In this document: positions 21,486 through 50,000 of the stretch, piece after piece
Layout: every line of letters starts with the position of its first letter
How positions within the stretch are numbered: position 1 is the first letter of the stretch
Source: Diprion similis
Taxonomy: Eukaryota; Arthropoda; Insecta; Hymenoptera; Diprionidae
Direction of reading: 5' to 3'
DNA length: 64,000 nt
NCBI RefSeq assembly: GCF_021155765.1
Contig: NC_060115.1
Coordinates: 11,822,493 to 11,886,492, forward strand
Translations under genes and position numbers: made by a program
Notes under the pieces: model-generated
Database searches by the model: none
What the model saw: the letters and a program-made list of their open reading frames with translations, nothing else
What the model was told of the DNA's origin: nothing

Positions 21486-22208
21486 AATCTGGTAGCTGGC
21501 TTTATTTGCACTTAATTGACCTCACGCTCTCGGTGCTCCCACACTATTATTGAAAATTACAATCTACATTATCGGCTAAGAGCATCCATGGTTACGGCTA
21601 TGTACAAATGGAACGATGAATATGAGTAAATAGGTGCATGGTCGTACTTTTTGTAGCCCGTGTGTTTAATTTGAGCAATTTGAAAATGACTACCTAACAC
21701 TGCATAACTCGGTGTACTGATTGCAAGGAATTTTTGTGTTCTAATATGGCTAAGGATTAAATTACTGTTAATATTTTGCTAAAATATTATAGGTTACTGG
21801 TTTGTCTTTGATTTTAAATGAAACATGCTTGACTAAGTGCATTGCTACCCAATTACAGTACAGAAATATAGTAAGCGCTAGTATAGCCAATGCTCTAACC
21901 CACCTTAGTTTCACTAGTTTTTCCAAGCCCACTATAACGTGCTTGACATGAAATATGAAAATCAGCAAAACGCATTATTCTGAACATGGAAAACATTTAT
22001 AACACGTGTTTGTTACATAGAAAAGTAAATATTTATTCATCTCATACATATAACTTGATTACTTAATATCGTACCAATTGCAGTCCCATACATTGAAAAT
22101 CTTGACGAGTATGAGTGGTAACGACGTATTGCATGTCAACTGGTAAGAAAAACAATTCGTGAAAAAACATTGAACAATTATTAAACGATTTTTAAGTGCC
22201 ACCAAATT
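21486..22208. other. Convergent 3' ends of PCM1 and the unknown Cys-rich gene
   Basis: The two genes end tail to tail 723 bp apart. The stretch is AT-rich and must hold both 3' UTRs. I could not assign the cleavage sites; a TTTATT (AATAAA on the minus strand) occurs near 22030. Confidence 0.5.
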
Positions 22209-23855
22209 CTAAAATTCTGCTTCCTCAATTCCACTTTGTGATTGAAATCGTTGATGATGGTACACCGAGCACCCATGTGTTTCTAACAACATTCTCTCGT
22301 ACTCGGCGTCATCGTGGCTGTTTCTCAACTTTAAATTATCATTCAATAGATTGTTACATTTTTTACTATCGTGATAAACTAATTTACTACGGTTACCTGC
22401 TGCCCAAAAACAGCTATTAACCGTAGCCATCAATTCCTGTTCCTCACGATATTTCAATTCTCCATTTATGCACAGTCGTGCCGATTTACAACGCACCTCG
22501 GCCAATCCACAGTCTTTTGCGTACGTTCTACCATGGTAAGTGCAGCAGTTACCACTACCTCTGAAAAGAAATACTCTCTTATTAAGTGCCTAATCAATTC
22601 TGTCCGCCACAAAGAAATAAAAAATAAATAATGGCCGTATCTTTATATCAGAACAACATAACGACGTGCATATATTATACTATGAAAGTTACAGTCGCTT
22701 AATAAATAAATTATTACTAGTCTTAATATTAATTACTTGGGCTCATTCGACGAGTAGACCCAGCAACCTGTGGTATGCTTTACTCTACTATTGATAACGC
22801 AAGGTGTAGTTCACAAAGGATTGGAAGGCTCTCAAATTATCTTCGTCTCTCGTTCGATTCCGTTGGCCATCGTTTTTAACAATAAAAGAGAAAGGAGAAA
22901 ACGGAGAGAAAAACATTTTCGAAACTAAATTTGGCTGTTGGAAAAATTGTATGATCAAAAGTTATCTGTGTAATTGATTTGTTCGTTTGTTCATTCGTTT
23001 ACACTACTCAGCAATTTCAAATGGTGGATTTCAATTGAATAGGCGACATCACCGATTCAAAGAACATGCAAAACTATCTCGCATCAGCGGTATTTTTAGC
23101 AACCATTTTCAACAGTGGCGCTCTTTGTTTCCGTAAGAAAAATACACACTCCGTGCCACCAGACAGACCGAAGTTTTTATGTTCTATTCGGCGAAATGAA
23201 GCTGAAATATCGTACAGGTAAACGAATGCGTATCTGTATGCGTGAGAAAAGATATATTGTATATACAAACACGTATGCAGATAGGTATGTAAATACTGAT
23301 TAAATATAACTTATGACACATGATTTACGTACATATATAAATATAGCGCTCGATTATTTCGGGTATAATCCATGGAGTCCATACTCAACATACGTTAAAG
23401 GAAAATGGATAATCAAAAATTATACCTTTCCGTAATCTTTTGAACTGATCCGGGTCAGCGAGCATCAGCTCCCCGTTATTGTTGCGTTTCCGGTTGTTTC
23501 GTCGTCGCGCGGCATCCTGACACGCTTGCTGCCGGGCTTGGCCGAAAGCGCAGAGTCTCAGTACCGGATGATCGTGATCGTCCGGAGAAGGAAAAGCAGC
23601 CGGATTAGCCCCGCGCAAAGCTTCTGGAATCACGCAATAGTTATTTACGAGATCAACGGCGCGGCCTTCGTCATCGGTTTCCATTGCACCGTGGCAGTTT
23701 CCGCTCGTTGTATCTTTCATATTCACGTCCCAGCAGCCACTGCTACAATTACCCGGCTGCAGGTTCGCGTTATTTTGCGGCACAAAACCGTAGTACGCGT
23801 TAGCCGATACGTAAGATGCACCGCTGATACCATAATACGCCTCGCTAACAGCCAT
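22209..23855 (-). CDS. Unrecognised Cys-rich basic protein, 259 aa, two exons
   Basis: Exon 1 is 23855-23426 and exon 2 is 22558-22209; the junction adds one base plus two and keeps frame for 260 codons. An in-frame TAA lies four codons before the ATG, which fixes the start. The N-terminal half is Tyr/Ala/Asn-rich with scattered cysteines and an acidic stretch; residues about 112-143 are strongly basic (RRRNNRKRNNN, then FKRLRK), which looks like a nuclear localisation signal. Exon 2 opens with a compact Cys/His-rich block (GNCCTYHGRTYAKDCG, then VRCKSARLC), possibly a metal-binding or disulphide module, and ends in an acidic His/Gln-containing tail. There is no signal peptide and no membrane segment. 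I do not recognise the family. An alternative donor at 'gcag|gtaacc' (about 22406) could shorten or replace the C-terminal 60 residues. Confidence 0.75.
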
Positions 23856-26735
23856 CGTGTTATTTTATTTGATATAGCAACAATATATGCACGAAACGAG
23901 AATCAAAAACGGGAAACAAACCACACGCGCAATGAGACGCTACACGATGCTAAGAGATTGTAGGTTCAATGTTTGCACCGTTACTACCGGTTGCTACCTG
24001 ACGACAACTGTTGTCTGTGGACAACTGAACTGAACTGAGTAACTGACACTGATCGCTGAATCGCTCGGTCTCCCTCCACACCCTACCTCGGCGGAAAACG
24101 GGCAACATGCGTCGCGTCCTACAATCCATTCGCCCCCCCCTAACCCCAACGGCCGGTATTTCTTGTAAGCAGAATTGACTTACCGTGGTAAGTTGTCCAG
24201 TAATCAGGGTTGCCAGAAAAATAGTACCGCAGGTCGCCAAAAGAGAGCGCACAGGTAGCCCAATGTGTAGCAATTCAAATAAACGAGACAGTCAAGACTC
24301 CTAATTAATAAAAACCAAATATATCTTTTACTCAAAGGTATTGCGAAGAGAATATAACAAGCGTCGTTAAAGAGAATAATAATTGAACAATTAGAAAACA
24401 AGTGAAGGCGTGGTGAGCTATGCTGGTCTTGTTGCTATCCGTCTAGGGAAATCTGTTGTGCGCATCATGTGGATATAGCATGAGGTTGAACATCATGTGG
24501 ATGCGGTATAAGGCAGAGTGAATTCCACAAATGTAGCCAACCTCCCGACTAACAAATAATCCCTAGGTTATAGTAAAATAAAGAAATTGACTACGTGTGT
24601 CTCAGATCAAACGATTGGCGGATACAAAAAGATGAGATATTTTTTCAAAAACGCAAAAGACTATTCTTGGGGCTTTACTCTAAATTGTAATTTTATCATT
24701 TTTTCGCTGGCTGTTGCCCGATTCTATGCGTTGTACAGAACAAAGATCAGAATATCTTCAAGCGCATTCAATTGTTATTCGTTATCAATGCTTTGTCATC
24801 GTCCTACTTCATAGTCAACGGATCTTGGCGGGATTTGCGACTTTACGCTGGAGTTCGGATACAAACAACTGACAATCGGCAGAAAATTTTTCTTCCTGCC
24901 TCCAATTTACCGGACGGGTCTTGGCTTGCCGTTATCGTATGATTGTTATTTTCGTTATTGAAGTTAAAGAAATATGAAAAGTAGCCGCGAATATTCTGTT
25001 TTACATTTGTAATTTGTCGCGTGCAAAGATTCAGGCCACAGAGGTATGAATATAGCAATCAACTGGCACCATAAAGTCATTTAGCCTATGAAAAATTCAT
25101 AGAGTCAATTGTTATTCGTTATTGCAAGCTAAGCTCAGGTAACATTCGAAATTATTTACGTAAGTTCCAATGCTCTGTGTCCGATCTTCTAGTCAAAATT
25201 TAGTCACGATGAATGTTATTGTTATAGCAAGTGCAGCGCGTATTTTAGAGAGCGAGTTTATTCTATTTATTGCGAGGTGAAAAATTATAGTGGGTTCTCC
25301 ATCAGTGATATTCTTTATTTGTCTTGCCAATGAATGAGTGCCATTTCAGGATAAAACAATTTACCTCAGTGTTCTCCAGAGTAATATAAAATTTATTTGG
25401 TATTCTCCGAGGAAATATGAAATTTATTCCTTTATCTCCATATACATACATATATGTATAGGAATATGTAATTCATGACGGAAGGGATTCACTTTAGATG
25501 GTGCGGCTGGACCGATTGTCAAAATGCAGCATGGGTAAGTCGCATGAATTTAATATCATGTGTCGAATGAACGTCAATGTCTGGTGGCAGTTAGACTGAC
25601 GAATCGCTATTTAATACTTGACGCTATAGCTAATTGCAAATTATTGCCTTTTTATCTCGACTGCTGATGGTAAACTGAAAACCTAATAATAGTTGACGTC
25701 GGGTGTTACCTTTACTATGATATTTCAAAGGACATCGCGCACTCTTAGCCAATATGCAGTCAACAATATGATCATAATATGCTTATTCCCAGCTGACTTG
25801 AAATAGTTAACGAAGAATTTCTGTCGATATTAAGTCAACTAACAGCCAAGAGTGTGTTATCTGGATTGTGACTGTCCGCTATTTGAAAATGTTCAGTTGT
25901 ACTATGATAAAAGTATTCGAAACTTCCACTTGTAATTTAGTTACTAATGTCATAGCACCTATAGATCACCACGAAAGGGTAATAGTTTTTAAGCGTTTTG
26001 AATGTTGGCCAAATTCAATTGGGCAACTTTTTAATTTAGGGTAGTAATTAATTTTTTTGAAAAATTAATGGCTTGTTGATCTGAACAAATTTTAAGATGA
26101 ATTTAACTATTCAACCGACAAGGAAATGTCACAATCGATGCCCAATAAGGTGATTTAAAAATAATCACTATTTCTGTTGCATTTTTTCTCAATTAACAAA
26201 TATTTTGTGTGTAATTCTGTTGACAAAATTTTTAAGGCTTGACCGTACAATAAATAGGATTAATTACTGAGCACATACTTTGCGTAGTCGAAGGGAAATT
26301 AATTAGTTTCGAACTAGCATCTGAATATAATCACAATCTAAAAGTTGTAAAAGTCTTGTTTATTGATTAATTATTATCTTCGTTACACAGATGTGCACAA
26401 TATAGTAAAATTTTCCTCTTAATTAAAATGTGTTTTCATTTTATGCAAGTTTAGTAGTGAAGTTTTATGTAACTACAGAATGAACCAGCAGTTATTGCTT
26501 TGAATTTCTATTATGACGCAGCTTTACATATCATTTTTAAAGAACAGTTTCTTTTGTTCCTCGTTTCTATGGTCATATTGGAATGTAGAAACAAGTTTAT
26601 GCCATTCAGTATATATCGAAATGTGTTTACATGGATTCAGACTTTCGGAGCATTCGTTCTGTAATGCAAATTGATGTTGGGTCAAACGCATAGACTTGTA
26701 GAATAGATTGAACTCTCCCATAAGAGCCCAGTAAG
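23856..26735. other. Upstream region of the Cys-rich gene and spacer
   Basis: 23856-24150 is richer in GC and CpG than its surroundings and probably holds the promoter and 5' UTR of the minus-strand gene; no clear TATA box. The rest, to 26735, is AT-rich with no gene that I can support. Confidence 0.45.
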
Positions 26736-26757
26736 CCCCCCCCCCCCCCCCCCCCCC
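26736..26757. repeat. (C)22 homopolymer
   Basis: Twenty-two consecutive C residues, about 230 bp left of the foldback element. Confidence 0.95.
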
Positions 26758-26975
26758 AAACCGGTGTCTAAAAGTTGCCTTTAAGATGTCTGTTTTCAGA
26801 TAACTTATCAACACCATTTAACGTCGACTTCAAGATAACTTACCTAAGATACCTTGAAAACGTCCACAAGGAGTTATCTTGTACAAGTTGTCTATAAGTC
26901 AACCGATCAAGACAACTGCTAGTCTGCTGGTAGTTGCAATATCTATGTTACGCATGTCTGGTGGTCAAGACGTAC

Positions 26976-27599
26976 GTGCTCAATAGACTGTATCAAAAAA
27001 ATTGACTATTTTTTTTTTTTTTGAAAAATATACTGAAAATATTGTTCAGGATAGCGAAAAAAGGTGCCTGTTAAAATGGGAGCTCTTAATTTTAATACTA
27101 AGAAGTGCCTCATTGCGATTTTCTACTTTCCATAAGAATAACATGGCAAAAATGGTTCTTGCTCCTTGCGATTTTTATAACTAGATAACGACGCGTCGTA
27201 CAGAAAATTGATAAACATTTTTTTGTAGAACGTTCAATTTCCTACAAAAAAATGTTTATCAATTTTCTGTAGGACGCGTCGTTATCTAGTTATAAAAATC
27301 GCAAGGTACAGAAAATTGATAAACATTTTTTTGTAGAACGTTCAATTTCCTACAAAAAAATGTTTATCAATTTTCTGTACGACGCGTCGTTATCTAGTTA
27401 TAAAAATCGCAAGGAGCAAGAACCATTTTTGCCATGTTATTCTTATGGAAAGTAGAAAATCGCAATGAGGCATTTCTTAAAATAAAAATTAAGAGCTCCC
27501 ATTTTAACAGGCGCCTTTTTTCATTATCCTGAACAATATTTTCAGTATATTTTTCAAAAAAAAAAATTGTTAATTTTTTTGATACAGTCTAGTGCTTAA
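26976..27599. mobile_element. Foldback (long-inverted-repeat) non-autonomous DNA transposon with 8-bp target duplication
   Basis: The element proper is 26984-27591 (608 bp). It begins TAGACTGTATCAAAAAAATT and ends with the reverse complement (AATTTTTTTGATACAGTCTA). The two arms, about 215 bp each, stay nearly identical inward through a shared stretch (TGGCAAAAATGGTTCTTGC on the left at 27142-27160, its complement on the right), so most of the element would fold into one hairpin. Flanks are GTGCTCAA (26976-26983) and GTGCTTAA (27592-27599), an 8-bp target-site duplication with one mismatch. Eight-bp duplications are typical of hAT and P superfamily elements; terminal TAG with this duplication size leans towards hAT, which is inference. 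There is no transposase; the open frame at 27002-27184 is inside the arm and not a gene. The close match of the arms suggests a fairly recent insertion or arm homogenisation. Confidence 0.88.
27199..27414. repeat. 108-bp tandem duplication at the centre of the foldback element
   Basis: The unit 27199-27306 recurs at 27307-27414 with about three differences. Each unit is itself a hairpin (TACAGAAAATTGATAAACAT to its complement, loop AACGTTCAATTTC) plus a 36-bp piece of the right arm (GACGCGTCGTTATCTAGTTA and following). Confidence 0.9.
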
Positions 27600-30441
27600 T
27601 ATGCTCATATGAGCATATATTGCTTTTATTATTATATTATAATAAGGGTTAATTATTGATACATCTTGCAGATTATTAAAAAGTAATGCATACTTTATTT
27701 GTTTAAAGGTATGAAAGTTTAGGCCATGACTAAGTATAAAGAACTTGGAAATTTTGTAATAATGGCTCTGAAATATCGCCTGTCATTGTTATATATAAAT
27801 GCATTCGAATAAAATATGCTACATCCTACTGAGTATATATTATACATCTTCCTATGTGGTAAAGATAAATATACATACATGTATGTCGACATATATAAAT
27901 ATATACGTGGGTCTTATAAACCCTCACAATTTGAAAACAACGTCCAGTTACTCGTGTAAGAAACATTTAGATCACTCCAAGAATGGTCAAAGATACCTTT
28001 TTCGAATACAACAAGATGTCTAAATTTCGACTATCGTTCGGGTCGTAAAGTCATCTTTGAACCATCCTACAGACAAGAAAGAGGCAACATATAAATGGAC
28101 ATTCGTTGACTCACTTATATTGTCTAGATAAGTTGTTGGTTCGGCTCGCAAAAAGGTAACTTTTGTCTACGAACGTCATCTGACAGACAACCACCAGACG
28201 ACATCTTGTTAATAAGCCGTAGTCAGTGGAACGAAAATTCAATCGCATGTAATAATACATGTTTGTAATATAGCATTAATTTATTCTTTTCGAAGAGCCA
28301 TTTGTGAATCAGGCACAATTTTTCACATTTGGTATCACAATGAAACTGAGTGACTATTTTCATTCATAGTATTATATAATGCAGGAATTTTTTTGTCACA
28401 CAATACCTATTGAATTCTTAAGGTCGTGCAAGCTGTGCTGTAAGACTGCTGCTTTACGACCTGGACCATGATTATGACTATTTTAATGATCTGAAAAAGA
28501 TAAGCCAGGCACATTTGTGATCGTAAGACTTGTCTCTAGCGTCTGAAAAATGATGGTATTTTTTCACATCTATTTTTTCAATCACAGAGTGCACTCTGGG
28601 TCTGTGAGACTCTGTGCTTTTTTCATAGTCTACCATTTCAGAACTACTCATTCCATCGACTCGAAAAAAATTCTCATTGTTAGATATTCCTTGATAGAAT
28701 ATATTGTAGAATTAATGCTGGTAGTTTAAATGCCTCTTTAGAGTTATTACTCATCGCCAAAAATTCGTGAAAAAGTATTTTCTTTTACGAAAAAAAGGAA
28801 ATTTCGTTACAAAATTGTAATAATTAAAAATATTTCATATTTTGGATAAAAATTTGAAGAAATTCGGGTGAAATAGTGGGAAAATCAAAACTTGAGGACA
28901 GGATCCGACTGATTCAGTGTGGAATCGAAATAATTTAACAGAATGGTGCAATTTTGAAAACCTGATTTTTCATGTGATGTAAAACTTGTTGACCTACAAA
29001 GCATAATTTAAATATTTAAAAGTTGTCTGTAGTCCGGACGGAAGCAAGATGCAAGGTGAGTTTTTAATAGGCTCTCCAAATTTGAAGTTAATCTGTTCAT
29101 TGCTTGCTAAAATATTGCAGCCTTAAGTTGCAAAAAGTCAGTTTTGAGAAAAATGTGTTTAAAGTTTTTCTTGCCGTCTCGATAGGGCTAATAATAATAA
29201 TTATTTTTGCAAGTTACTGCACATAATCAGCAATTCCTGCGCTATACTGTGGACCTTTCACCTCCAGGAGCGGGTCAAAGACCAACAATACAGTAACAAC
29301 AGCTGCTGCACATTCGCTGCCTGGCACGATGAGGATGTTTGAAAATTTCATGAAAATTTTACGAAGTATTACTCTTTCACATGCCTTAAACTTGAATCAG
29401 ATAGTTTTTTTATTATACTTTTAAAAAATTGGATAAAATTTGTTTTATTCAACCTTCGGAATCTATGTAACCCAAGCTGCAAAAGGTTTGACAAAAATGC
29501 ATCCAAAAATTGTGTGTGCAGAAAGTTTTCAGATGAAAAAAAACCACAAGCTGGAAAATTATAGCTGATCCCCTTCGCGAGATATTCAATTTTCAATGAG
29601 TTTTCAATTAGTGTTAAATATTAACTACTTTTTGCATAATACAGGATCAACAGCGTGGACGTCGGTGTGGTAATTATAGCCCCGTTTTTATATTTTTCAT
29701 GTTTTTTTACGTTGTTTTCTATTTGACAATTTTTCTTTTGTGAATTTTTTTCCGTTGCGATACTTTTTTACAAAGTGCATGACTTATGGTCACAGAAAAA
29801 AAAGAAAAAATTAATAAATAAATAAATAAAAAAAAAAACCATTCAATAAAAAATATGACGTATTATATGAAGTATTTGACTAATTTCGTTTAAAAGATTC
29901 CACTAATTTTTTGAAATACACCTGTGTAATTTTCGTAATCGAAGAATAACAATTTATATAACGATCTAGAAAATACGGTAACGGTCAGCTGCATCAGCTA
30001 ATTCGATGTACAATATATATATTGTTATTATGCACCTGTGAATTATCAATTCAAAATTCAAGGCTTTAAAATGCTCTTGCTTTCGTGAATAATTTTCCAC
30101 AGTATATATATATGCATGCATGCGCAATACACCGATTTCGATTTTTTTTTTCAAATGAAACGCACACCATGTCAGCACATCTGTATTAGGCCACACGAGC
30201 TCTGATTGGTTCGTAGCGGAGCGATATTTCTCACTGACCAATGACAACCGTTTCATTCCTACGTTATGATTTTCCTCCAATCGAAGCCTAGGACACACAA
30301 GTTCCAGAATTCGAACTTATGTCGTGTCAGTTGTTACGTCGTTGCGACGTTGGACTCCGTCAGAGCGATGTTGGCTGTTGGCGGTCAGATCGTCGCGCAC
30401 AATCGGTGGCGACAGCCGCGAGTGGATTTAGCATTTCAAAC
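27600..30441. other. Spacer left of the MBOAT gene
   Basis: AT-rich with no gene I can support. 29030-29330 reads like decayed repeat sequence but could not be classed. The last 150 bp (about 30300-30441) rises in GC and CpG and probably contains the TATA-less promoter and 5' UTR of the MBOAT gene. Confidence 0.45.
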
Positions 30442-33400
30442 ATGGCCACCGAGGGGATTAGCCAGGGCTGGTTGGCAGGCTTAGCGACATCATTAAACGT
30501 ACCTGAAGCTGCAGTTAGACTTTTGGCTTCAATTCTACTAGGTAAAGTGATGTTTTTTAATTTCATACTTATTACTAGGTCGTTGTCATTAATCGGATTA
30601 CAATAAGATGGCACTTTTTTCTCTAACGGTCAGGAATCTCGGTCATAACCTAATTTCTTTTGACATTTGTAGATCACTGATATATACTCGTTTTCGTTGG
30701 CTTTGAAAGCTGAAATAAAAATATTCGATATCGTTGTGAATTCGGGTTGTGATTATTCTTTTTATCGAGTATTTTTGTACCGAATGTTGACACTTGGATT
30801 CCTGTAAATATTTATTATTATCAATACAAATTTTAATTAATATATACTGAAATTTTTTGTTTAATTTTCAGGTTTTCCATTGGCATTGTTTCACAGGTAT
30901 AAGCTATATGGCAAGGAACAAACCACGCAACATATATTTTTTATACTTTCCGGGTTGAGCATTGGGTATTGGAATTACGGTAAGACTGTTATGCTTGGAG
31001 AAGTTTCTATCATACACATTGTGCAATCCTATAAATACCGTTTAAAGATTGATCTATAATTATAAACACAATTACACGACTGTTTCAGCCTTTTTATTTT
31101 TTACCTTTTGCTTTGCTATAAAGTTTCTTTCACCGGGAAGTTTTTTGCTTTGCTAGTGTACACTTGGCTTCTTATTAATCAAAGTATGTTCAAGATCTTG
31201 AAGATATTGTGATATGTTCAAATCCACTTGTCCATTTGTTGGCTGACAAGTTCAGTTTATTGTTTGATTTTTGATATCAACTTTAGTTGTTTGATCAGTC
31301 GTATTGTTATAAATCCAAAGTAAGAGCTCTTGTATGTAGACAAATTGAAAGAAGTTAAATTTTAAAAGCGGAGGCTTATTTCTTTATTTTTAATTTTTAT
31401 GTTATTATTAATTAGTATCTTTTGTTTCACACTTTTGAAATATTTATTCAGTTTTGTTTCAAGAATATGAGAATATGATCTTAATGCAAGTGCAAAATTT
31501 GTATAAAATATGATACGCTAAAAAATAATAGCTGTTTGAAAAATTGCCATATCTTAGTTTTAATTTTTAGGGAAGTTTGTCTGGCAAATACCTAATTATA
31601 GCTTTATGTAAATCAGATTTCATTCAATTTCTAATAGTATCACAAGATTGGAAATGAGTTCAGTAGATTTCAAAATATAGAGAAGATGGCGCAAAATTAT
31701 GCAACACTTAATTTTAGAGTTGAAGGATTTTGTGGTATTTCAAATGTTTTCAAAAGGATATTGTAATAAATTGTACAAAGTAGCTAGTAAGAGAGTTACG
31801 AGTGGTGATATTTTTTATTTGAGCCAAGGGAGAAAAATATATCAGTTATAGAACTGAATACTGAATAACGTATAATTAAGAAACTTTCATCCAAATGTAT
31901 TTATACGTATGTGGTGAATTAACAGAGTTCTGTCAGCTAACAGTTTTATAATATTATATATTTTAACTCGAATAGTGTAACATTTATCAACTGATAGCAC
32001 AAGGCTGAGCTACATCTCAGATAAGATAGTCATTGCCTTGCTTATGCTACATTCCCTTTTTCAAGTTTTTGCGCATCGTAGTTGTGTTATCTCAACACAA
32101 GTTTTCTGTTGTTGTTAATTGTAATACGCATATTTTCAATTATAAATATTTCTAGGTCCGGATATCCTGCACTCTGCATTTTCACTATGTGTTACCTACT
32201 TGATACTGAGGATAATCGGTGGAACGAATTTATCGGTGATCATGTCTTTTGTATTCAACATGGCATACCTGCTAGTGGGTAAGCAAAATTCATTGTCATC
32301 ATGAATAATTAGCTTTGGAACATTCTGTGACCTCTGATTCTATAATCGTCGTAAGAGTAAAGTCGATACAGTCTATTATTTAGCTTTCAGTGACATTCAA
32401 TTTGATAGAATGAATTTTATTTCTTTTCATTTTTGTAATATCTTTTTACTGCTCATAAATCAATGTTATATTATTTAAAATTGTATTTATGTGCTCAAGA
32501 ACACAATGGGTACAATTGCAATTATGGCTTAATTTACTCTTTGTGAAGATAAGTCTAAAAACCGATATTTTGTTCCGAACAAGAAACGCAATTTACAAAT
32601 AGCTCCTATTAAAATGCATAACAGCATAATTCAATTTCTGATCGACATTAATGTATGGTTTATACTGTTTATAATAATATGATAGCCAAGCTACAGACAA
32701 GTAAATACTATTGAAAAAAACAACAAACCTGTTTACAAATGCAAGCAGCTTGATGAGAATGACCACATTTTCTTATTTATACTATGGGTCAAAGTTGAAG
32801 TATGTCAAGATATGAATTTGACTCATGTGTCATCGCATAAGCATATAATGCACTTGACGATAAAATTTTTAGGATAATCTAACTGTAATTTGAAATGTAT
32901 GTAATACAAAAAACGTATTTCTCCAGTGATTGCAGAAACTCAAACACTAACTGAAATATGTTTGGCATTAGGAAGTTTTATTAAAAAAATGTTACCATTA
33001 TTTTATTCAGTTACTTGCTAAAGTATTGATTCATTCATTCTCAATTTTTGTTCTAAGGATATTATACAACAAGTACAGAAGATTACGATATAAAATGGAC
33101 AATGCCACAATGTGTACTGACCTTAAGGCTGATAGGTTTAGCATTCGATGTATGTGACGGCAGAAAAAAAGAAGTAATTATAAAACTGTATTTATTTTTA
33201 CAAGTTGCTAGGAATGTAACTCACAATTCATTGATTGTGTCTGATCAAAAAATTTAGGAAATGCTGTCAGCGTCCCAGAAGGAGACAGCTTTAAAGTCGA
33301 CGCCATCGTTTTTAGAGATCGCAGCCTACATATATTTTCCTGGTTCGTTTTTAGTCGGTCCACAATTTAGCATGAAGCGATATCTCAAGTATGTCAATGG

Positions 33401-34798
33401 CGAATTGAGGGGTCCGGTATGTCAGTTTTTACTTAATACTTTCCTCATTCATTGTTTTCTTCCATCTCTGAGAGCAGTTATTCTTCAATTTTATTTCACA
33501 ACTTTACTGGTAATCAATTGTGGTTGTGTTACAGGACTCCTCAAACGAATTGCCACCATGTATAGTTCCTGGTCTTTTGAGAGCTCTGGCTGGTTTTGGC
33601 TACATTGTAGTCTTCCAAATTGGCTCTATGTACGTTTCTGACGACTATATAGTTGACCCATCGTTTTCTAATGAGAGCTTTTGGAAGCGGTGGCTCTTAT
33701 TGGGACTGTGGGGTCGAGTTAACTTATATAAGTATATCAGCTGCTGGCTGATAACTGAGGGGGTAATAACTACTTACCTAACAATTGAATCACTTTATTT
33801 AAAGAAAAGTGAATCGAAATATTTGAACGTAACGGCTTATAATTTTTTCTTAGGTTTGTATTGTTTTTGGTATAACTTACAATGGAAAAGACAAAAACGG
33901 GGTTGAAAGGTGGGATGGTTGTGCCAATGTCGAGCTTTTGGTATTCGAAAATGCGACACAATTCAATCACTACATTCTTTCCTTCAACACGAATACTAAT
34001 CACTGGTGTGCCGAGTATATCTACAAAAGATTGAAGTTCTTAGGATCAAAAATCTACAGCCAAACAGCAACTTTATTATTTCTTGCCGTTTGGCACGGTT
34101 TTCACAGTGGATATTATCTATGTTTCTTCATGGAATTCATCATTATGAATTTCGAAAAAGACGTAAGTTTTATTACTATTGCCTCTGACTACTGATTCTA
34201 GTATTCATTATCTCATCAAAGTTCTCAGCATCAGGAAATGCTATTGTTTTTTTTTTTCATATCAAACTGCAATTAGTAGCGATGTAGTGTGCACTAAGAA
34301 AAAAAAGTAAAAAACCTGTATGCTAAACACAGTTTATCAAATTTGGGTTAAAATTTGCGTTTATAGGTTTTTAAGATTATGATGTCCAAATTGTGTCTCT
34401 TGATTTGCATGAAATGTATTATCTTCCGCAATCGTTACCACAAAACAATTTATCTTTGTTCATCGAGTATCATTCGATACTTTGTCTAATGAGAATGGTA
34501 ACTGTGATGATAATTTGTTTTTCAGATTGGGCCTGTACTTAATTCAAATAAGAAGCTGCAGGCACTTTTGAACAATCCAATAATAGCTGTGCTTGTCTGG
34601 TTTGTCATGAAAATATACACGCTTGTATTCATGGGCTATGCGCTAATACCATTTGTCTTACTTAAACACAGTAAATACTTGCAAGTATTTGCAAATTTCC
34701 ATTTTCTCGGACATATATTATTCATGGGTTATCCATTGATAGCCCCATTTCTGAAATCACTTATTCGAGAAAAGCGACAGAGATCACACGAAGAATAG
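30442..34798 (+). CDS. Lysophospholipid acyltransferase of the MBOAT family (LPCAT3/MBOAT5, nessy-like), 471 aa, eight exons
   Basis: Exons: 30442-30541, 30872-30979, 32156-32278, 33058-33173, 33258-33416, 33535-33762, 33854-34162 and 34526-34798; total 472 codons including TAG. The protein is a multi-pass membrane protein throughout. The MBOAT catalytic histidine is H359 in LAVWHGFHSGYY, and the upstream conserved Asn lies in FNTNTNHW (322-329), followed by YIYKRLKFLGSK, all typical of the LPCAT3/MBOAT5 branch. Such enzymes sit in the endoplasmic reticulum and transfer polyunsaturated acyl-CoA to lysophosphatidylcholine and related lysolipids (Lands cycle). The length is close to the roughly 470-490 aa of the family. 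I chose ATG 30442 (context AAACATGG); an in-frame ATG at 30319 would add 41 residues of low-complexity Arg/Ser sequence and is less likely. The C-terminus is basic (REKRQRSHEE). Intron 2 is 1.2 kb. Confidence 0.94.
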
Positions 34799-43004: not shown

Positions 43005-43031
43005 GGGGGGGGGGGGGGGGGGGGGGGGGGG
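43005..43031. repeat. (G)27 homopolymer
   Basis: Twenty-seven consecutive G residues; exact length may be affected by sequencing or assembly. Confidence 0.93.
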
Positions 43032-47012: not shown

Positions 47013-50000
47013 CTACTGATGGCGCGGTGAACCTGGAGGATAATAGTTTTATGTAGGTAAATAAGTAAAACGTTTATTCACTCACCTGGTGCAATAACTT
47101 GATGCTGTTTATGCTGCACTCTCGAGTAGCCATCGATTACGGTCATGCCACCAAACTGTCGACTGCCTCTTACTTCCGGTATCGAATCCTTTTCACTTCC
47201 AATTACCATCGACCCGTCAGTTTCCTGGGTAGGCGTCTGTCTCTCCGATGTGAGTCTCGTCTGCGCGTTACCATTCGTTATACCATCAGCGAAATTCCTC
47301 CGTTTTATAACCTTGCGCATGAGTCTGGCACCTTTCGTCGTTCCCGATTCTTGTTCCCCAGTAGGTGTAAAACGAACCGTGTCCTCGTCCGCATTCACGC
47401 CGACCTCCGACCTGTCGTTAACCTTGTCCGAATTCGGCGCGTCAACGGCAACCCCTGTTACTTGCGAAGACGCAGAAACGAACGGATCGGACTGATAAGA
47501 ATTCGTCGGTGTTCCGTACGAAGTGAGCGCCGACAAATCTTGTATGAAACGGCTGTTATCACCCTCTGCGAGGTACTGAACATCCTGAAAATTCGTCGCG
47601 TCTTTCACCGGCGGAGTTGCGTAGGTCTTTGCTGGCCCTAGAGGATTCTCAGGGCTCTGATACGACGAAAACGAGACCTGATAAACCGGGGCGGTGATCA
47701 ATGGCTCTTCGTTCTTCGGTGGTACTAGTTCTTCGGCAAGGGCTCCTGTGTCGTCCAAGTTCTGGGACGAAATATCACCGCCATTACCGCGGATTAGTTC
47801 ATCGCTAGCAACGTTGAAGTTCACCTGGTTGCCAGTGTTACCCGTGGTCTGTCCGTAGACCAGAGAAGGTACAAAGTTATCGGACAACTGGGCAGATGAC
47901 TTCGGCTCATTCTCGTTTACGGCCAGAATTTGTCCCGCCTGGACAGTATCGTAATCCTGGTACTGGTGGTCTCGGATGTTTTGATCCTGCTCATAACTGG
48001 TTGAGCTAGTCGACGCGAATGATTGTCCTTCGGATTGTGAAATTGCTTGAATATGTTGATTCTGATACTGTGTATCTAAGTTGCCCGAATTCTGTGAACG
48101 TTCTTGTTCCTGGTAGTAGTATATCGGCTGACCCGACGGAGGAGGAAGTCCTTTGTTTGACTGCTGGTACTGCGCTTGCGCAAAACCTTGTGCGCCACCT
48201 TGGTTTGGAGCAAATGCAGTCGTTTCATAAGCCGGGGGTTTGTAGGTGTCACGGTTTTGCGTGTAGTAGAGATCGTTGTTGGGAGATGACGGTAAGGTTT
48301 GACCATAGATGACAGGAGACTGGGAATCCGTGTTTGTAGTCGAGCTATATGAGCCTGTGTTCCGCACTTCCGACTGTGGAAGATTGTAAGTATATCCAGA
48401 GTCCATGATCGGACCAACGACATGTGGGATTTCGGACTGGGAATCCGTGTTTGTAGTCGAGCTATATGAGCCTGTGTTCCGCACTTCCGACTGTGGAAGA
48501 TTGTAAGTATATCCAGAGTCCATGGTCGGACCAACGACGTGTGGGATTTCGTACTGGGTGAAAGGCACCGAAGGTGCCTGATGGATGGCGATGTTCGACA
48601 CACCCTTGTAGGGCTCAACGATTTTCGAGACGTCCGGTGCAGCATTCGCTGGTAGTTTAATTGCGATGTAGGAGCCTCTGGTCTTTGGGAGATAGTAAGT
48701 CGTTGGTGGGATCGCCGCTGCACTCTCTGTTTGTGGCTGATAAAACAGCGACGGCAAAATGTTTCCTGATGACTCCGTGGTCGGAGTGCCAGCGTTGTTG
48801 GAACCCAGGCCAAATACCGAGGATAAAAATCCGCCGCTGCTGGCTGGCTTCTCTTCCACAGCAATCTCGGCAACCGGTGCTTGGGTCGTTCCTCGGAACC
48901 GGGAGAACAAACCCTCGAAAAATCCTGGACTTGAAGTGCCAGTGTTTTCCTGGATATTAGCACTCTCGTCGTCCTTGACTTCGGGCAGGAAAGGGCCGAG
49001 GCCACCGAGGTTGTCCAAGAAGCTCAAGTCGGGTTTTTCTTCCTCCAGTGACTGGGGCTGGACCAAAGAGCTCTGGCCTTCGCCCAGACCGTACATCTGC
49101 ATTTGTCCTCTTTGGTAGTCAACGCTGTGCAAGTTGGGTGGTCCATAGTTGGCGTGTGGGATTTGTGAAGCCTCCGGAAAAGCTTGTCGGTAATCCGCGA
49201 GTGGCTGAGCCTGAGTTTGCGACTGTGGCGACACGTAGGTCTCATACTTCTGTTGCGTCTGAATGTTGTAGTCACCGGTTTCAGCTGTGAAACCGGAGCT
49301 GTGGTATTCACCAGAGTTATGGTTCTCTACTTCAGCGGGATACGGTGCCGACGGGGATGAATACGTCGGTGAATATCCGGTCGGATAAGTCTCATGAGCG
49401 GGTCCTGATTGCTGGTAACCGTTTGAGTAGCTACTCGAAGCATAGTCCAAGGATGCACTTGACCCCGGCGCATATCCCACCTCAACTATGTCCCCTTCCG
49501 GCGGATATAAGTTCTGTGCCTGAAGATTTACCGGGTGAAGATCGATGCCGTTGTATTTGTGGATTTTCCAAACCGGATATTTGGTCAGATCGATTCCCTC
49601 GGGTATTGCTGTCTCGCCCTGGATAAACCAATCGTTGTTCTGGGGCACCGGAGCTGGATAGATTTCTGGGGCCTCAGTTGTCGTTGCTGAGGAAGTGAAC
49701 GGCCATATACTTCTCGATGCTCTCTGCCTTTGTTGTTCCCCGAGTCCTTTGGACGCCGTTAAATCGATCTGATTCGGTGGTCTCGCCAGAGTTAGCCCAA
49801 GGATGGAAAGCCATAAGATCTAGGAGCGTACAAATTCAAAAGTTCATTAAAACCGAGGAGACGTGGGCGTATAGGAGAATTAAAGTATAGTTCGTCGATA
49901 CTAGGTACTAGACACTCTAGGATGAGAAAGGCATGCAGGTACATATTATATGTCTTAGCGTTTGTCGGTACGGTACATAAAAGTAAGGTCTGGATTATTA

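Follow-up and report, generated by a model that had tools for sequence, protein, structure and literature searches.

The 608-bp foldback element in the window, by which we mean the whole 64,000-nucleotide stretch of Diprion similis DNA that was analysed, probably belongs to a family of palindromic foldback MITEs moved by a putative hAT-type transposase, the resident copies of which would have been cut at the hairpin tip and their arms copied one onto the other, and the window copy would have lost its centre before undergoing a duplication; to this joint reading we assign a probability of roughly 0.7. We also lean, if only slightly, toward regarding the family as a natural experiment, namely a few hundred copies of a 649-bp palindrome in which most breaks fall within about 20 bp of the loop, loss is one-sided, TA-rich filler accompanies some of the breaks, and one arm has been copied onto the other.

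The genome searched comprises 269 Mb in 60 contigs, and copies were collected in two ways, by similarity to the window element and by terminus. The search with the window element gave 573 candidate places, 40 of which were scored, and the terminal 15-mer, at no more than one mismatch, occurred 587 times in the genome against 51 for its reversed control; by this excess the family numbers a few hundred copies. The terminus listing took in 100 of the 587 sites, on C1-C6, and the entries L001-L008, in which the window copy and six others appear again, were counted once only. From 32 near-full-length copies a majority form of 649 bp was derived, whose one loop, of about 14 nt, lies near 318-331. 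A foldback MITE is expected to have multiple dispersed copies with conserved ends, long inverted repeats that make up most of the element, and a target-site duplication of fixed length, and all three were found here, the second as self-complementarity at 638 of 650 aligned positions and the third as 8 bp, at one mismatch or fewer, in 36 of 50 two-ended copies. The element thus appears to be a non-autonomous foldback MITE and a near-perfect palindrome, ordinary, if extreme, among foldbacks as a transposon. The original prediction had called it a foldback DNA transposon and had named a single copy, or copies lacking 8-bp duplications, as findings that would speak against this; the 573 candidate places and the exact 8-bp duplications in 20 of the 50 two-ended copies bear it out.

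Within the window, the inverted-repeat element of 608 bp lies where it had been placed, between GTGCTCAA on the left and GTGCTTAA on the right, which differ by one mismatch (Table 1). Its arms, put at 215 bp and called near-identical, are indeed so (220 of 229 aligned positions identical, with 6 gap columns, in the outer 232 bp), but they are longer than was claimed, because the longest ungapped inverted pair reaches 260 nt, at 95% complementarity. The middle, overlooked in the original prediction, consists of two tandem 108-bp units, 99% alike, each with a smaller hairpin. Relative to the consensus, the sequence follows the left arm up to about 243 and resumes at about 392, the centre being gone between two TTTTTGTAG repeats. 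The centre would have been lost at this 9-bp repeat and the new centre afterwards duplicated in tandem as a 108-bp unit. The pattern formed by the centre junction has two exact matches in the genome, both of them the tandem units of the window copy, and since exact matches occur only there, the rearrangement is probably private to that copy. At two mismatches or fewer there were 22 matches against 5 for a control, the sole place with one mismatch being C1:8164282. The window copy is a rearranged derivative of the family and not its typical form, so that the phrase "essentially one inverted repeat" suits the family form but not this copy as its representative; the exact junction matches led us to reject the candidate reading that takes it for a typical member.

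Table 1. Features of the window copy, in positions of the window.
Feature	Position	Strand	Remark
Left target-site duplication, GTGCTCAA	26976..26983	.	Differs from the right copy by one mismatch; agrees with nTnnnnAn
Foldback element, 608 bp, inverted repeat, ends TAGACTGTATC ... GATACAGTCTA	26984..27591	.	
Left arm, consensus 1 to about 243	26984..27229	+	BLAST maps it to consensus 1-265; last 20 bp ambiguous
First 108-bp tandem unit	27198..27305	+	Small hairpin inside
TTTTTGTAG, 9-bp repeat, site of centre loss (consensus about 244-391)	27220..27228	+	
Second 108-bp tandem unit	27306..27413	+	99% identical to the first; perfect 31-nt stem 27306-27336/27350-27380
Right arm, consensus 384-649	27327..27591	-	
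Right target-site duplication, GTGCTTAA	27592..27599	.	

Beyond the 20 exact 8-bp duplications, 16 more of the two-ended copies have one with a single mismatch, and 1000 shuffles of the flanks yielded on average 3.1 exact duplications and at most 9. The remaining 14 copies have no 8-bp duplication at that tolerance, L014 and L029, with exact 9-bp duplications, being among them. Many targets are TA or TG runs, within which the length of the duplication is ambiguous. Among the 36 copies, all 23 sites that are not made of A and T only have T as their second base and A as their seventh (nTnnnnAn), equivalent to 22 independent sites since L032 and L078 represent the same insertion. This suggests that the foldback MITE was inserted as a unit by cut and paste, with a hAT-type transposase acting in trans. 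The same target rule, nTnnnnAn, is reported for the hAT element Hermes (PMC2803484), and the family accordingly has in common with hAT-derived MITEs and Hermes-type hAT elements an 8-bp duplication of that form, its non-coding character and its multiple copies.

A Mutator-like (MULE) transposase is an unlikely source of mobilisation, although an insect precedent is at hand in Muta1 of Aedes aegypti, a foldback MULE which leaves 8- or 9-bp duplications and has many non-autonomous derivatives (PMC5225508), much as the family shows 8-bp and two exact 9-bp duplications. The same account describes no apparent target preference for Muta1, contrary to the 23 informative sites above, and gives it terminal inverted repeats of 145 bp with subterminal tandem repeats (PMC5225508), the two being compared here on features other than end sequence. 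The genome holds 21 places with a MULE domain, one of them 3.2 kb from L084 and another 8.7 kb from L079, the nearest to any of 160 listed family positions; the nearest of all (L104), however, has inverted repeats of its own, of about 146 bp and unrelated to the family. That MULE-type transposase region, at L104:1183-3368, has long inverted repeats composed of short tandem repeats and is reminiscent of Muta1.

Paralogous sites provide a further view of insertion. A GC-rich host repeat was matched at 16 places, 6 of which end exactly at one insertion point (G000:C4:8268768, C12:1325111, C14:1190717, C13:8619679, C5:5475224 and C12:6136411) and 4 of which continue through it. Three of the six that stop are known to carry the element there, as L078, as L032 and as a terminus abutting at C5:5475223. 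At the four that run through, all of which were read, the flanks are joined with no element sequence between them, as paralogous empty sites; for a clean 8-bp duplication, their TA-rich target is 3-4 bp too short. Because L032 and L078 have a common duplication, the element was probably already inside the host repeat when the latter multiplied.

Many copies are shorter than the palindromic family form, the loss in most cases beginning at its centre. The terminus-based samples consist of the 17 exact-terminus pairs in the terminus listing (L015, L028 and L029 among them) and of 20 unpaired termini (17 from C1, the other 3 from the start of C2), and are unselected for arm length, whereas the similarity sample favours long arms. 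The pairs comprise 4 scored deletions (L080, L081, L082, L085), 4 central insertions that were left uncounted (L078, L079, L083, L084) and 9 near-full-length copies; L029, which lacks about 17 bp of a poly-A/T stretch, was likewise not counted as a deletion. The unpaired termini comprise 8 near-full-length copies, 8 scored events and 4 that were set aside for complexity or excessive divergence (L113, L118, L119, L124), and two C1 termini already in the similarity sample, L098 with a centre break and L009 at full length, were omitted. Of 12 scored deletions or truncations, 8 have an edge in consensus 305-345 (L080, L081, L082, L085, L106, L109, L116 and L120) and 4 do not (L105, L112, L121 and L122), where 1.17 would be expected and P = 2.3e-6 if breaks were uniform. 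The centre zone had been noted as 308-345 from the first cases, before the unpaired termini, and was fixed at 305-345 afterwards; the 8 unpaired-terminus events taken alone, which were read once the centre had been noticed, place 4 at the centre, where 0.68 would be expected (P = 0.0026). BLAST ends, which are accurate to a few bases, serve as the break positions, and L105, L116, L120, L121 and L122 were read over about 760 bp, so that a second arm may lie past a large central insertion, as it does in L078.

The similarity sample agrees: 8 of its 12 one-armed loci end at 311-344, the remaining four having their ends at 355, 388, 415 and 438, and in L032 the deletion starts from consensus 336. 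Several junctions lie a few bases beyond the loop, at GACC(T), and TA-rich filler occupies the palindrome centre in L083, L084 and L118, the last of which was left out of the centre breaks since further arm pieces follow the filler and it ends near 404. Most of the breaks, then, lie at the centre of the palindrome, and a plausible cause is that the resident palindrome, as a hairpin or cruciform, was cut at its tip and rejoined after one-sided loss, which would yield many short or half copies.

Palindromes are difficult to sequence and assemble, and the one-armed and centre-deleted copies might for that reason be errors of assembly or of polymerase. This we regard as quite unlikely: none of the 12 one-armed loci contains an N, the deleted copies L080, L082, L106 and L109 retain the second terminus together with an exact 8-bp duplication, and many near-intact palindromes of 640-660 bp are present in the same assembly. 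The possibility that the one-armed loci are the ends of a larger coding element was considered and rejected, since the 2.5 kb past the break is mutually unrelated among the 12, apart from matches at the centre among L083, L084 and L118, and since no second family arm with a matching flank lies in the roughly 6 kb inward of the 12 loci. Diverged relatives at 72% and 78-84% identity, 4.7-6 kb away in L099 and L100, are taken as separate older copies, and 5 of the 12 one-armed loci (L092, L093, L097, L099 and L102) have one further terminus match each at three mismatches or fewer.

Which transposase moved the family was also approached from the ends. hAT elements terminate in the consensus YARNG, and the family terminus TAGAC agrees with it at 4 of 5 bases, the miss being at base 5. 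The family thus differs from hAT-derived MITEs and Hermes in this terminus and in being a palindrome over its whole length, its link to a transposase being one that we infer. Two diverged relatives, L113 and L122, have a TAGGG end that fits YARNG; in these a TAGACTG end is paired with a TAGGGTGT end. A TAGGG-type 15-mer is present at 19 sites in the genome against 2 in a control, and the 19, compared by eye, have no transposase domain place within 20 kb.

Transposase domains of the hAT type lie at 116 places in the genome. The 160 family positions that were listed, a partial set that includes repeats, have none of these closer than 20 kb. Thirty of the 116 were read with 1.5 kb of flank and contain no exact TAGACTGTATC, only scattered matches at two mismatches. 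Termini unlike the MITE interior (24 sites against 7 in a control) were searched for an autonomous partner, and among these, the similarity copies and 100 of the 587 termini, no hAT, MULE or P domain place lies inside an element. The two largest two-ended elements that were fetched likewise hold no transposase-length frame: in L078 (2299 bp) the longest frame, of 119 aa, enters from the flank, and no frame in L079 (1577 bp) reaches 50 aa. As a separate observation, the centre of the family copy L078 houses another palindrome, unrelated and about 1.66 kb long (L078:650-2306, G000:C4), 95% self-complementary and beginning with GGCTGGTTCC, with an apparent 4-bp duplication (AGGA).

Because TAGAC misses the hAT consensus and this partial search found no element bearing a transposase, hAT mobilisation is put forward as the likely rather than the demonstrated source, and because the partner search covered 30 of 116 hAT places and 100 of 587 termini, we classify the family as a foldback MITE whose target rule is hAT-like, not as a proven hAT element. 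Of the hAT or P type suggested by the original prediction, then, the target rule fits the former, while no autonomous hAT, P or MULE partner emerged from the part searched. A P-superfamily origin resembling that of Galileo is very improbable. The Galileo account (PMC4168063) does describe long arms, two sequence subfamilies, tandem repeats within the arms of one copy, duplications of 7 bp (8 bp in three copies) and no functional copy found in D. willistoni, all reminiscent of the family, and the P-type RNase H domain has 89 matches in the genome. None of these nevertheless comes closer than 8.6 kb to a family position among the 160 listed (again a partial list), and Galileo, according to the same account, has a mostly 7-bp target, GTATTAC, unlike the family's rule, and keeps transposase-coding segments in some copies (PMC4168063).

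The two arms of a copy also carry a record of exchange. Over arm positions 1-11 and 38-225, arms fall into types A and B, which differ at 26 sites, all within 40-118, and both arms are of the same type in 30 of 32 copies, L030 and L031 being chimeras. In type A, substitutions common to a copy's own arms number 44, against a permutation mean of 8.2 and maximum of 23; the own right arm is strictly closest to the left arm in 5 of 24 copies, with 2 ties. The excess is weak in type B (7 against 1.8, P = 0.016), where none of the 6 left arms has its own right arm as strictly closest relative, also with 2 ties. Private substitutions are found in one arm only in 92 cases and in both arms in 10 for type A, and in 43 and 5 for type B. 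Type A is over-represented in this set of 32 because most copies came by similarity to the window copy; among the near-full-length copies sampled by terminus (L085-L091), 6 of 7 are type B. Inheritance within subfamilies would explain part of the sharing between arms, and the pattern of sharing is consistent with one arm having been copied onto the other, which would keep the arms alike; such copying seems to happen, but not constantly. The original prediction that such a hairpin could feed small-RNA pathways names a candidate role. Retention of the hairpin as a source of double-stranded or small RNA seems very unlikely, for although the window element, taken as RNA, has a very stable predicted fold (-415.4 kcal/mol, where 20 dinucleotide shuffles average -110.5; z = -36), similar folding is expected of any palindromic transposon, window 22000-34000 has no Rfam match at gathering thresholds, and selection for pairing is not suggested because copy-private substitutions lie mostly in one arm.

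The view that hairpin tips are where long palindromes are cut comes mostly from engineered constructs and from human translocation sites. Cunningham et al. in 2003 reportedly dealt, going by the title, with center-break palindrome rearrangement in somatic cells, which would likewise be rearrangement from the centre, in somatic cells rather than in the many genomic copies seen here. In a dispersed family of near-identical palindromes the starting sequence is known and natural outcomes are numerous, so that the positions of breaks, the filler, the direction in which DNA is lost and copying between arms could be counted across a genome and compared among related species. The interest of the family resides less in the type of element than in what it documents of breaks in palindromes and of exchange between arms, the hairpin-tip record being unusually clear. 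A PMC full-text search returned no description of the family by title or start of abstract among the matches listed, Repbase and Dfam lying outside its scope, and by that literature, among the matches listed, the family is a new one of a kind already known.

More broadly, the window contains two DUF243 proteins, a domain which we take to be of insect cuticle type, and an MBOAT fragment. An open frame of 856 aa, which has no Pfam match at E up to 0.001, includes a 117-bp tandem repeat (97%) at 48318-48558, and single-base runs of 22 C and 27 G are present at 26736-26757 and 43005-43031, respectively.
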